A stretch of 62,306 bases of DNA from the NCBI GenBank assembly GCA_002354555.1, contig DELT01000094.1:1-62306 (forward strand), read 5' to 3'. This DNA is from Methylophaga sp. UBA2689. Lineage in GTDB: Bacteria; Pseudomonadota; Gammaproteobacteria; Nitrosococcales; Methylophagaceae. The translations under genes were made by a program, and so were the position numbers. The notes under the pieces were generated by a model that did not search any database, was not told where the DNA came from, and saw only the letters and a list, made by a program, of their open reading frames with translations. Positions 36,619 to 42,282 of this stretch are shown here, in pieces; positions within the stretch are counted from its first letter, which is position 1; each line of letters begins with the position of its first letter.

Positions 36619-37407
36619 CTATGGATTACAGTAAGTACAGTAGGTTGGGTTTCCATTTAATTTTTTAAGTTCTGACTCAATATAACCACATGATTTACAA
36701 CAGCTCACCAGCGCCTTGACTTCATTGGTAGGCTGACCGCATAGCTCACAAGTCGGTCCAAATTCTCTACCGTCAGGCCAAAAATCCATTTCAGCACAAT
36801 TCGGACATTTGCTTTGTAGCCGCTCAGCCAGGTTTAGTGCAGCCTTTTGAAGCATAATTTGTCTGAGTGGTGAGTTCATCGCTCTAAGATCTGGCTCTAG
36901 GTAAACGGGCCACTCGGTATAGGGGGGTTGATGAATAGTGATAACTTCTTTATCTGATAACCCCTTCAGAATTCCATCTGGGCACCTAAGCATCCATTTC
37001 TGCCTGTCAAAGCTCGACAATTTTTGTTTCAAATCATCGAATGATTCAGCTTTCACCCCCTTAAGTGGAGTTGGCCCCTCTGCTAATGCATACACTATCA
37101 CTTCAGGCTCTTTCTGATAAAGACAGATAATTTCCTGATTCCAGTTCATAAAGCCTGCCAAGGGACCACCACCAAAGCTACCTTCGCTACCTAACCCCAC
37201 GTTAAGACCAGTCAGTTCAACAGCTTTTTTTGCTTTGATTAGTGCACAGTCCTTGGGAGATAACTTTCTTTCTATTTCCCCAGAGAAAGTACCAAGCTCA
37301 TCGGTATCAAAAAAGTCGATTTCTACTAACTCGATACCAATATCGTAGAGAACCGGTGCCAGTTGTTGAGACTTCCGATGCTTGGTCAAGAGAGCTGCGT
37401 TTTTCAA
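36619..37407 (-). CDS. DUF6671-like zinc-ribbon protein
   Basis: A 262-residue soluble protein. The N-terminus (MKNAALLTKHRKSQQLAPVL, then FFDTDELGTFSGEI) and GLGSEGSFGGGP fit what I recall of DUF6671. The C-terminal 60 residues carry four CxxC pairs: KCPNC, TCELC, CCKSC and TYCTYC, two zinc ribbons. The start is a TTG overlapping the cysD stop (TTGA) and preceded by a strong AGGAGG, so translation is coupled. Its function is unknown; the context is sulfate-adenylyltransferase-like and inorganic-carbon-uptake genes. Confidence 0.7.
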   Translation of the reverse strand: MKNAALLTKHRKSQQLAPVLYDIGIELVEIDFFDTDELGTFSGEIERKLSPKDCALIKAKKAVELTGLNVGLGSEGSFGGGPLAGFMNWNQEIICLYQKEPEVIVYALAEGPTPLKGVKAESFDDLKQKLSSFDRQKWMLRCPDGILKGLSDKEVITIHQPPYTEWPVYLEPDLRAMNSPLRQIMLQKAALNLAERLQSKCPNCAEMDFWPDGREFGPTCELCGQPTNEVKALVSCCKSCGYIESELKKLNGNPTYCTYCNP

Positions 37408-38324
37408 AAATACCCCTCCTGTTTTTTTCTCTCCATCGAGTTAGCTTGGTCCTTATCCAGTAATCTGCCCTGCCGCTCACTGGTTCGAGAGTTCATCATT
37501 TCAATAATGATGTCTGCCACCGTTTCAGAATGACTTTCAACCGCCCCAGTCTGTGGATAGCAGCCCAGTGTTCTGAAGCGTATCCAGCGTTCTTCAATGC
37601 TGGCTTTTTCTGAATCGGTGAGATAAGACAATATCCGCTCATCATCGAGGCCCAGAATCTGCCCTGTTCCCTCATCCACCCATGAAAGTCTGGGTTTAGC
37701 AAAATAGAGCGGAACGATATCGATATTTTCTCTGAAGATATACATCCAGATATCCAGTTCAGTCCAGTTTGATAAGGGAAATACCCGCACCGTTTCCTTG
37801 GGGTTAATACGAGTGTTGTAGATGTTCCAGAGTTCGGGCCGCTGCGATTTCGGATCCCACCGATGCCCGGCACTTCGGATAGAAAAGATTCTTTCTTTGG
37901 CTCTTGAGCGCTCTTCGTCACGGCGAGCCCCACCCAATGCCGCATCAAAACCCTGTTTATCCACTGCTTGCTTGAGTGCTATTGTTTTCATCTGATCGTT
38001 ATAGATAACCGACCCTGACTCAATCGGATGGACGCCCTCGGCTAGTGCGGCTTCATTGATATGAACGATCAGATCCAGATCATGTTCTTTAACCAGTCGA
38101 TCACGGAAAGTCGCCATTTCGGCAAACTCCCAAGTCGTGTCAATATGCAACAGTTTGAATGGGACTTTACCCGGTGCAAATGCTTTGCGGGCAAGATGCA
38201 ACATTACGGTCGAATCCTTGCCGATTGAATAAAACATGCAGGGATTTTCAAAGCCAGCAGCGACTTCGCGCATGATATGAATGCTCTCGGCCTCTAATTG
38301 CTCAAGATGATTGAGTGTTTTCAT
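37404..38324 (-). CDS. cysD: Sulfate adenylyltransferase subunit 2 (orphan CysD)
   Basis: A 306-residue PP-loop ATP pyrophosphatase. It keeps the CysD pattern throughout: HLEQLEAESIHIMREVAA, the PP-loop MFYSIGKDSTVMLHLARKA, GGARRDEERSRAKERIFS, HRWDPKSQRPELW, RVFPLSNWTELDIW and the C-terminal SERQGRLLD-DQANSMERKKQEGYF. CysD normally works with the GTPase CysN in making APS; no cysN is nearby. The ATG at 38324 overlaps the dabA stop (ATGA) and has GGAGG seven bases upstream. It sits in a coupled operon with the bicarbonate transporter, so its substrate could be something other than sulfate assimilation. Confidence 0.9.
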   Translation of the reverse strand: MKTLNHLEQLEAESIHIMREVAAGFENPCMFYSIGKDSTVMLHLARKAFAPGKVPFKLLHIDTTWEFAEMATFRDRLVKEHDLDLIVHINEAALAEGVHPIESGSVIYNDQMKTIALKQAVDKQGFDAALGGARRDEERSRAKERIFSIRSAGHRWDPKSQRPELWNIYNTRINPKETVRVFPLSNWTELDIWMYIFRENIDIVPLYFAKPRLSWVDEGTGQILGLDDERILSYLTDSEKASIEERWIRFRTLGCYPQTGAVESHSETVADIIIEMMNSRTSERQGRLLDKDQANSMERKKQEGYF

Positions 38325-40711: not shown

Positions 40712-42282
40712 ACCCAAGACTCCTTAATAGATTTTTGTTTTGCCTTGCTTTGATGAAGCGTTGGGCGCAGTACGACTGGCCATAACTGTAAGGTCAAACG
40801 CGTCATTACTTCATCCAGATATAAGCCGGAAAATAACCAGCGATATAGCGTTTGTGTCTGTTTGGCCTGAGGGAAAAGCCGGATCTGCACCGTCAGTACA
40901 AACAAGAAAAGAAACAGAAACATCAGCCAAACATCCATCGCATCAAGCATTCCGGTCGTTGCTAAAGACGGAATCAAATTTCCAATCAGCAATTTTCCGG
41001 CTAGATAGAAACCCACCAGTGCAGTAGAGATGAAAAGTGCTTGTAATGAGCCCGATAAACCACTATGACTAATTGCCGAAATCAAATATAAAGCCAGCGC
41101 AGTATTGACTAACAACCAGACACTGAGCGGCCCTTCATAATTGGTAAACAAAGCGATAGCAGCTGTCACTGCGAATGCAAGTGATATACAAATTAAAGCG
41201 CCACTCAGCGTAATTGTTTTTTGCGGTGCTAACATCTTGAGACTGTAATCCTGAACGGCTTCACCTGTACTCAGAAATGCATAGGCTTTGTAGAGTGAGT
41301 GGGTTAGCAAATGCAATAACGCCAGTTCATAAAGCCCCAACGCACACTCAATCAGCATAAGCCCCATCTGAGCACAGGTAGACCAGGCTAGTCGCACTTT
41401 TATGCTGATTCTGGTCAGCATGACCAATGCACTAATCACCGTACTCAAACCAGCAACAACAATCAGTGTCCATTGGGCGAGTGGCACCAGCACCATCAAG
41501 GGCGCGAAACTGATCAACAAAAAACCACCAAGATTGATAATTCCGGCATGTAACAGCGCGCTGATTGGAGTAGGGGCTTCAACCACTTGTATCAACCAAC
41601 CATGCAGGGGCAATTGAGCACATTTGATTAATGCTGTCTGAGCAATCAGAAAAGCAGCCAGTTTTTCAACAAAACTCAGTTCGGCACCTTCAGAGAGTCC
41701 GAGATAATGGTCAAAGATGACGTTGAGCTGGAATGAGCCATGGTGCGCATAAAGTAATATCACAGCCCCTAGGAGACTCAGCTCTGCTAATCGTGCCAGT
41801 ATGAATTTCTTATGCGCTGCCAGCACTGCTCGGGGCCTGTCTGGATAGAACAAAAGCAAACGGTGAAAACATAAACTGATAGCCACCCAGCCTAACCACA
41901 ACAGTAAGAGATGATTGCTTAAAACAACTACAGAAACTGAAGCCAGACTTAATAATAACCATTGCCAAAATTGATGTGCTCTCTTTTCCCCCTGCAAGTA
42001 ACGCTCAGAAAACCGGATGAGAATTATTGCCATAAAGCTGATCAGGAACAGCACGGTAAGATTAATATTGTTTAGAGTTAACAGGCTTTCTGAGCTTTGT
42101 TCAGGAGTATTAAAAAAAGTAATTGCCACAATAAGCGTTGCTATACCTAAAGTAATTGAAGTAACCCTCAATACTTTTCGGCGCTTAATTTCAGTGAGCG
42201 TGGCCTTGCCCGCGAGTAACGCACCAAAGATTAAAACCAACGGAATTACAATGGAAAAGTGGGTGAAAAATAATTGACTCAC
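40708..42282 (-). CDS. dabB: Inorganic carbon uptake subunit DabB (NuoL-like)
   Basis: A 524-residue membrane protein of the proton-conducting NADH-dehydrogenase-subunit-5/MrpA family with about 13-14 helices. HAGIINLGGFLLI and the preceding PLHGWLIQVVEAPTPISALLHA show the conserved channel Lys/His region. In DAB systems this subunit couples ion flux to DabA. The GTG at 42282 is the probable start because a perfect AAGGAGG lies seven bases upstream; the ATG at 42288 is only one base from it. It diverges from a LysR gene and is the first gene of the coupled dabB-dabA-cysD-DUF6671 operon. Confidence 0.92.
   Translation of the reverse strand: MSQLFFTHFSIVIPLVLIFGALLAGKATLTEIKRRKVLRVTSITLGIATLIVAITFFNTPEQSSESLLTLNNINLTVLFLISFMAIILIRFSERYLQGEKRAHQFWQWLLLSLASVSVVVLSNHLLLLWLGWVAISLCFHRLLLFYPDRPRAVLAAHKKFILARLAELSLLGAVILLYAHHGSFQLNVIFDHYLGLSEGAELSFVEKLAAFLIAQTALIKCAQLPLHGWLIQVVEAPTPISALLHAGIINLGGFLLISFAPLMVLVPLAQWTLIVVAGLSTVISALVMLTRISIKVRLAWSTCAQMGLMLIECALGLYELALLHLLTHSLYKAYAFLSTGEAVQDYSLKMLAPQKTITLSGALICISLAFAVTAAIALFTNYEGPLSVWLLVNTALALYLISAISHSGLSGSLQALFISTALVGFYLAGKLLIGNLIPSLATTGMLDAMDVWLMFLFLFLFVLTVQIRLFPQAKQTQTLYRWLFSGLYLDEVMTRLTLQLWPVVLRPTLHQSKAKQKSIKESWV

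Follow-up and report, generated by a model that had tools for sequence, protein, structure and literature searches.

On the minus strand of a 62,306-nucleotide contig of Methylophaga sp. UBA2689 (DELT01000094.1, analysed over its whole length and hereafter called the window), the genes dabB, dabA, cysD and a member of the DUF6671 family form a compact operon, divergent from the gene of a LysR-type regulator. This arrangement, dabB-dabA-cysD2-DUF6671 (cysD2 being a paralogue of the canonical cysD), appears to be a previously undescribed form of DAB operon. On balance, we read the four genes and the regulator as an operon for bicarbonate limitation, in which DabAB would supply bicarbonate while the predicted hydrolase DUF6671 and CysD2 would have adenine or purine nucleotides of the cytoplasm as their targets.

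This reading draws on the company that DUF6671 keeps. We surveyed the best 80 of 523 DUF6671 loci in a genome-contig collection, counting as near any gene within 1.5 kb of DUF6671. DabA or DabB, SbtA, Sua5, PurK or PurE was near in 52 of the 80 loci and CysD in 9: the recurring core is DUF6671 together with bicarbonate supply or use, and CysD is optional. Because DUF6671 often adjoins genes for bicarbonate transporters and bicarbonate-using enzymes, in two phyla, the group likely represents an undescribed response to bicarbonate shortage. The pattern fits a supply arm (DabAB or SbtA), users that would sense the shortage (Sua5, PurK) and a constant, predicted nucleotide-handling DUF6671.

Bacteria need bicarbonate for nucleotides, for threonylcarbamoyladenosine (t6A) and for anaplerosis. 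That DUF6671 is found, across two phyla, with Sua5, with PurK and with two bicarbonate transporters of unrelated kinds offers a handle on a response to bicarbonate shortage; it also lets a function class be predicted for DUF6671 and an orphan CysD clade be put to a defined test. In the open-licence PubMed Central literature searched, we found no paper treating DabA, bicarbonate and CysD together, no dedicated bicarbonate-shortage operon family built on DUF6671, no account of a DAB operon that includes cysD or DUF6671, and no use of the name DUF6671.

The operon and its predicted carbon pump

All four genes, at positions 36619-42288 in the order dabB, dabA, cysD2, DUF6671, are full length. Consecutive genes overlap by ATGA, ATGA and TTGA, and their ribosome sites are good, exactly as the first-pass annotation of this DNA had described. 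The same arrangement recurs in other genera and is therefore not a matter of chance. The first gene, dabB (40708-42288; PF00361 137 bits, PRK08168 515 bits), encodes an NDH-1/Mrp-like membrane subunit of 526 amino acids if read from the ATG at 42288. As an AAGGAGG Shine-Dalgarno sequence directly abuts that ATG, we judge the GTG at 42282, the start originally proposed, to be the likelier one. It is followed by dabA (38321-40711, ATG at 40711; 796 amino acids, PF10070 800 bits), for the beta-carbonic-anhydrase-like subunit; by cysD2 (37404-38324; 306 amino acids from its own ATG), for a paralogue of the ATP-sulfurylase small subunit; and by the DUF6671 gene (36619-37407; TTG start, 262 amino acids). 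No CysN gene lies within the operon.

As expected of a DabAB system, a full-length DabA is encoded here next to an NDH/Mrp-like DabB. The zinc ligands attributed earlier to DabAB (Cys337, Asp339, His500 and Cys515) are all in place in DabA together with R341, giving a Cys-His-Cys zinc site and an Asp-Arg dyad; matched by motif rather than by alignment, they are the counterparts of C351, D353, R355, H524 and C539 in the DAB2 structure, as excerpts of that report give them (PMC13144422). The pair thus shares with described DAB pumps (DabAB, DAB2 of Halothiobacillus, MpsAB) both its DabB-DabA composition and its zinc-site residues. According to excerpts of two papers, DAB2 hydrates CO2 vectorially and heterotrophs need bicarbonate (PMC13144422, PMC9894237). 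The window DabAB is predicted to be an inorganic-carbon pump, which would supply bicarbonate.

Incomplete genes were seen on either side: in a Pseudoalteromonas locus (L039:8637-10798) dabB and dabA are reduced to fragments with an intact DUF6671 gene behind them, and at L131/L093 a partial DUF6671 with a stop adjoins a full-length dabA.

Genes beside DUF6671 in other genomes

A sample of 229 Gammaproteobacteria genomes was searched for both DabA and DUF6671, which occurred in 55 and 11 genomes, respectively. DUF6671 adjoined dabA, or lay one gene off, in 7 of its 11 genomes (in one of the seven the match is weak, partial and interrupted by a stop), which excludes that the linkage is confined to the Methylophaga genome. 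Among the other four, two had DUF6671 next to Sua5 and SbtA, one had no recognised neighbour and one had it at a contig end.

For the wider survey, neighbours were identified by Pfam and NCBIfam scans of representatives and extended to the others by similarity. We compared open reading frames (ORFs) near DUF6671 (230 kb in total) with those in the remaining 1,148 kb, and obtained near/far counts of 21/3 for DabA, 30/2 for Sua5, 10/2 for SbtA, 9/0 for CysD, 4/1 for PurK, 4/2 for PurE, 18/0 for isocitrate dehydrogenase (IDH), 8/0 for dihydroorotase and 5/1 for IlvD; since the queries came from recurring neighbours of the same loci, these counts, like those for Bacteroidota below, show recurrence and not significance. 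The 21 DabA ORFs correspond to 19 loci, as L039 contributes three fragments. An operon listing covered 78 of the 80 loci, the remaining two (L049 and L060) being included in the near/far counts. As an independent yardstick, the surroundings of 25 rdgB genes contained one idh only.

In Bacteroidota, DUF6671 was found in 47 of 247 genomes of the class to which an Arcicella genome belongs. Among the best 30 Bacteroidota loci, where L223 and L214 repeat L053 and L074, SbtA, DabA or Sua5 recurred in 15, idh in 17 and SbtA near DUF6671 in 12.

PurK, Sua5 and phosphoenolpyruvate (PEP) carboxylase are established users of bicarbonate, and one locus carries PEP carboxylase, PurK, PurE and DUF6671 in this order; a purE-purK-DUF6671 arrangement is also present. 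For the human YrdC enzyme, a partial text reports a bicarbonate Km of 13 mM (PMC5951830). All 18 genomes with a DUF6671-linked Sua5 hold at least one further YrdC-domain gene, possibly of the YciO type, and the linked Sua5 is therefore likely an extra copy; L055, which has no linked Sua5, stands outside this count. The linked purK is the only copy above the cut-off in three of four PurK-linked genomes, and the fourth has another full copy.

The proposal that CysD-DUF6671 works with DabAB consequently stands in part. Other genomes conserve the unit too, and the tie of DUF6671 to inorganic-carbon genes holds, but the proposal is too narrow, because CysD is missing from the 1.5 kb around DUF6671 in 71 of the 80 loci and because SbtA, Sua5, purEK and idh occur as neighbours without DabAB. 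CysD is not a core partner, and DabAB is not always there.

Two further arrangements are recorded. Four Winogradskyella loci (L061, L068, L071 and L084) have a recG helicase-like gene ahead of DUF6671 and no scored bicarbonate gene within 1.5 kb, and at L055:2140-5387 three consecutive SbtA-like genes diverge from DUF6671, and dabBA follows 3 kb downstream.

The DUF6671 protein and the second CysD

The window DUF6671 protein, whose closest named relatives are from Methylophaga metagenome-assembled genomes (MAGs), matches PF20376 with 99.8 bits (cut-off 23.8). Its predicted model (mean predicted local distance difference test score, pLDDT, 90.6) has an ITPase/Ham1/Maf alpha-beta fold, with ITPase-type proteins as top structural matches. 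Profile comparison with RdgB gave a match of 91.7% over the N-terminal 64 columns, lining up Lys12 and a K58-A motif, which may correspond to the phosphate-binding lysine and the KA helix motif of the ITPase N-terminus. An alignment of 118 rows (106 distinct sequences) contains 15 residues invariant in every row. We predict, on the strength of the model, that DUF6671 is an ITPase-type nucleotide pyrophosphohydrolase. It resembles the ITPase superfamily (RdgB/Ham1, YjjX, Maf) in predicted fold and perhaps in these two motifs, and differs from it in forming its own Pfam family and in carrying four extra CxxC pairs. These pairs occupy the C-terminal region (residues 201-262; 36622-36807), each cysteine being retained in at least 115 of the 118 rows; two zinc ribbons, noted from the outset, are predicted there.

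Searched by sequence against solved structures, DUF6671 gave two matches (E 0.16 and 1.8), which we dismissed as chance, and no NCBIfam model matched it at E 0.001. We also discarded the idea of a new carbonic anhydrase: the eight cysteines pair as CxxC, presumably for structural zinc, the other most conserved residues are charged and ITPase-like, and the sole histidine conserved in at least 95% of rows is H10 (115 of 118).

The operon CysD was confirmed to be full length, with its PP-loop kept and no CysN in the operon, and scores 453 bits against TIGR02039 (cut-off 396.6), matching structure 1zun_A with E 6.4e-131. It is not the only copy in the genome: a second cysD sits elsewhere in a cysH-cysD-cysN set (CysN 740 bits, cut-off 590; CysH of the corresponding set in a near relative 280, cut-off 154), which makes the operon gene a paralogue. 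A cysD without cysN recurs beside DUF6671: CysD2 adjoins DUF6671 in ten genomes, including this one (seven with DabAB, one with SbtA, two with neither), and in these genomes, chosen for the DUF6671 link, the linked stretches hold no cysN, cysC or cysH. Each of the ten carries, in addition, a canonical CysD whose neighbour is CysN (8) or CysC (2). One of the linked copies, that of a Paraglaciecola MAG (L047), is split close to the C-terminal end.

In trees of 20 and of 49 sequences (midpoint-rooted for drawing only), the DUF6671-linked CysDs form one clade with 100/100 support, and none of the 39 other CysDs is a member of it away from DUF6671. Among the 30 best CysD loci of a 398-genome phylum sample, the other 29 all have CysN (27) or CysC (2). 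Numbered on the 311-amino-acid ORF, the PP-loop residues S38, G40, K41, D42 and S43 are invariant, and 98 columns are invariant across both CysD2 and canonical CysD. CysD2 thus has in common with CysDN and CysD-CysNC ATP sulfurylases its full length, its PP-loop and these columns, and differs in its missing CysN or CysC neighbour, its separate clade and its status as second copy in 10 of 10 linked genomes tested. Group-specific positions, including C34, E71, S108, N114 and W220, distinguish 9 or 10 of 10 CysD2 sequences from the canonical ones, and the group carries small insertions.

These data bear on two alternatives. DUF6671 could serve house-cleaning only, clearing a damaged or unusual nucleotide, such as aminoimidazole ribonucleotide (AIR) triphosphate, built up when PurK stalls for want of bicarbonate, with CysD2 as a passenger. 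The predicted ITPase fold, the purE-purK and PEP carboxylase neighbourhoods and the sole linked purK copies would suit such a role; however, no more than 4 of the 80 loci have PurK or PurE near DUF6671, AIR triphosphate is a conjecture, and CysD2 is hardly a passenger, given that the linked CysDs form a single DUF6671-bound clade with no member elsewhere among those compared. We consider this explanation unlikely. Somewhat less probable still is that CysD2 serves as a spare subunit of ATP sulfurylase, in partnership with the CysN encoded elsewhere in the genome, DUF6671 being an unrelated co-regulated gene in a loose stress group. The score of CysD2 above its model cut-off and the canonical cysN elsewhere in the genome agree with this idea, against which stand the separate clade with its group-specific residues and insertions, and the adjacency to DUF6671 without cysN in the stretches read from ten genomes.

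Plain sulfur metabolism was rejected as the operon's role, as the canonical set lies elsewhere and the linked stretches lack cysN, cysC and cysH (sulfate transporters were not searched for).

Regulation, proposed mechanism and genomic setting

The divergent LysR gene (42375-43259, plus strand; PF00126 and PF03466) has the NhaR model PRK11062 as its nearest NCBIfam model, but with 126.7 bits it falls below the cut-off of 219 and is thus not NhaR; it also differs in sitting with DabAB and DUF6671 (nhaA was not looked for). Proteins scoring at least 237 bits to it occur at 20 loci, next to DUF6671 or dabB: 13 are divergent from dabB with dab genes close, six are directly divergent from DUF6671 with no dab gene in view, and at L020 the gene lies between DUF6671 and dabB. 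The other LysR genes, found where DUF6671 is accompanied by idh or SbtA, are far from this group (29-46 bits).

Between the LysR gene and dabB lies ATCTATTTTA (42332-42341, minus strand), a promoter motif and candidate LysR site. It occurs once in the window, where 0.21 occurrences are expected and 19 of 100 shuffles have at least one, so that the single match is weak evidence by itself. Among 241 loci, 12 distinct others carry it at the LysR-operon border, always oriented toward the operon, with 8 occurrences elsewhere; at L028 it precedes DUF6671 with no dab gene in 10.9 kb.

In five Haliea-type loci (L017, L022, L027, L056 and L082), an NhaR-like LysR gene is accompanied by a divergent DUF6671 and by ilvD on the same strand within 1.5 kb, ilvD being immediately behind DUF6671 in the gene listing of four of them.

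The bicarbonate-limitation reading leads to the following hypothetical sequence of events. Falling bicarbonate would cause the LysR protein to switch the operon on, and DabAB would hydrate CO2 vectorially to bicarbonate. Meanwhile, bicarbonate-dependent steps (threonylcarbamoyl-AMP synthesis by Sua5, and PurK) would slow and nucleotide pools shift, and DUF6671 would bind or hydrolyse the nucleotide that accumulates. CysD2 would most likely stay an ATP-using adenylyltransferase, as an ATP-sulfurylase subunit perhaps served by a CysN encoded elsewhere; this is the weakest step. A precedent for a nucleotide-cutting transporter partner is SbtB, a PII-like protein whose apyrase activity tunes the bicarbonate transporter SbtA, according to excerpts of PMC10117731. 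The two cases share a soluble, predicted nucleotide-handling protein encoded beside a bicarbonate transporter. SbtB is PII-like, DUF6671 has ITPase-type proteins as its top structural matches among the families listed, and DUF6671 also adjoins non-transporter genes.

Several observations weigh against this reading, in which the fold and hydrolase chemistry of DUF6671 are predicted, and the bicarbonate response and operon induction proposed. No transporter, Sua5 or Pur gene lies within 1.5 kb in 28 of the 80 DUF6671 loci, 12 of which have no scored family at all, and bicarbonate offers no simple explanation for idh, dihydroorotase and ilvD as neighbours. From the DabA side the association is uncommon (DUF6671 near dabA in 7 of 55 DabA genomes), and a phmmer search of the 30 best-scoring DabA loci returned no DUF6671 and no CysD, yet L093 among them has a weak, broken DUF6671 match. 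The operons are not always extra low-CO2 copies, since the linked purK is the sole one above cut-off in three of four PurK-linked genomes. CysD is not known to use bicarbonate, and 9 of the 20 LysR-group loci, including all five Haliea-type ones, are without an exact ATCTATTTTA. Regarding the fold, the RdgB profile match is limited to 64 columns at the N-terminus, which a global alignment did not extend, the conserved SEGS motif staying unaligned; Foldseek template modelling (TM) scores by query against ITPases are low, at 0.29-0.34 over the first six rows. At E 0.001 PF20376 alone matched, with no Pfam Ham1, Maf or YjjX match (PF01725, PF02545, PF01931).

A bolder version, which we hold to be rather improbable, would place DUF6671 at the heart of a bicarbonate-starvation system, so far undescribed, in Gammaproteobacteria and Bacteroidota, as its hallmark. 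This ITPase-fold enzyme would read or erase a nucleotide that arises when adenylating and carboxylating enzymes dependent on bicarbonate stall; in one branch CysD2 would be the dedicated adenylyltransferase producing it, and the output would be DabAB or SbtA.

Least probable of the alternatives considered is a signal module in which an adenylylated signal (adenosine phosphosulfate, APS, or adenylyl-carbonate), made by CysD2 and destroyed by DUF6671, tells LysR or DabAB of the sulfate or bicarbonate supply in an SbtB-like manner. The predicted nucleotide-hydrolase fold, the invariant columns that CysD2 retains, PP-loop included, the divergent LysR gene and the SbtB apyrase (PMC10117731, in part) are in its favour. 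Against it, the window LysR has no known ligand, and with 71 of 80 DUF6671 loci lacking a nearby CysD, a product of CysD cannot be a general requirement for DUF6671. The idea of a regulatory nucleotide, suggested in the first-pass annotation, may still hold, given the predicted ITPase-type fold; an energising step and a bicarbonate/sulfate link, suggested with it, gained no evidence. A zinc-limitation operon was considered, since zinc regulons include paralogues of dihydroorotase and of carbonic-anhydrase type. It was rejected because it does not account for SbtA, Sua5, PurK and IDH, and because DUF6671 is itself a likely zinc binder.

The genome also encodes a beta-carbonic anhydrase and a RuBisCO large subunit (L243:7831-9288, PRK04208 808 bits), which we infer to be of form I. 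On the opposite strand lies a LysR gene whose best model is CbbR (229 bits, below the cut-off of 450). Judging from its genes, this Methylophaga-genus organism may be an autotroph using the Calvin cycle, and DabAB may also feed that cycle here given the RuBisCO gene, which was looked for in the window genome. The same region (L243:6675-13030, contig C37 of the window genome, G000) also holds a 130-amino-acid ORF, a GvpN/CbbQ-like ORF below cut-off and a 780-amino-acid ORF.

Convergent to the operon, the window carries genes for a class II aldolase, fructose-bisphosphatase and triose-phosphate isomerase, and a related MAG (L011) has ORFs of the same three lengths at the same place. Behind the LysR gene, positions 43574-47028 encode a tyrosine integrase (PF00589), an ORF of no assigned function and an AAA_25 protein with a helix-turn-helix, which probably make up a small integrated element beside the operon.

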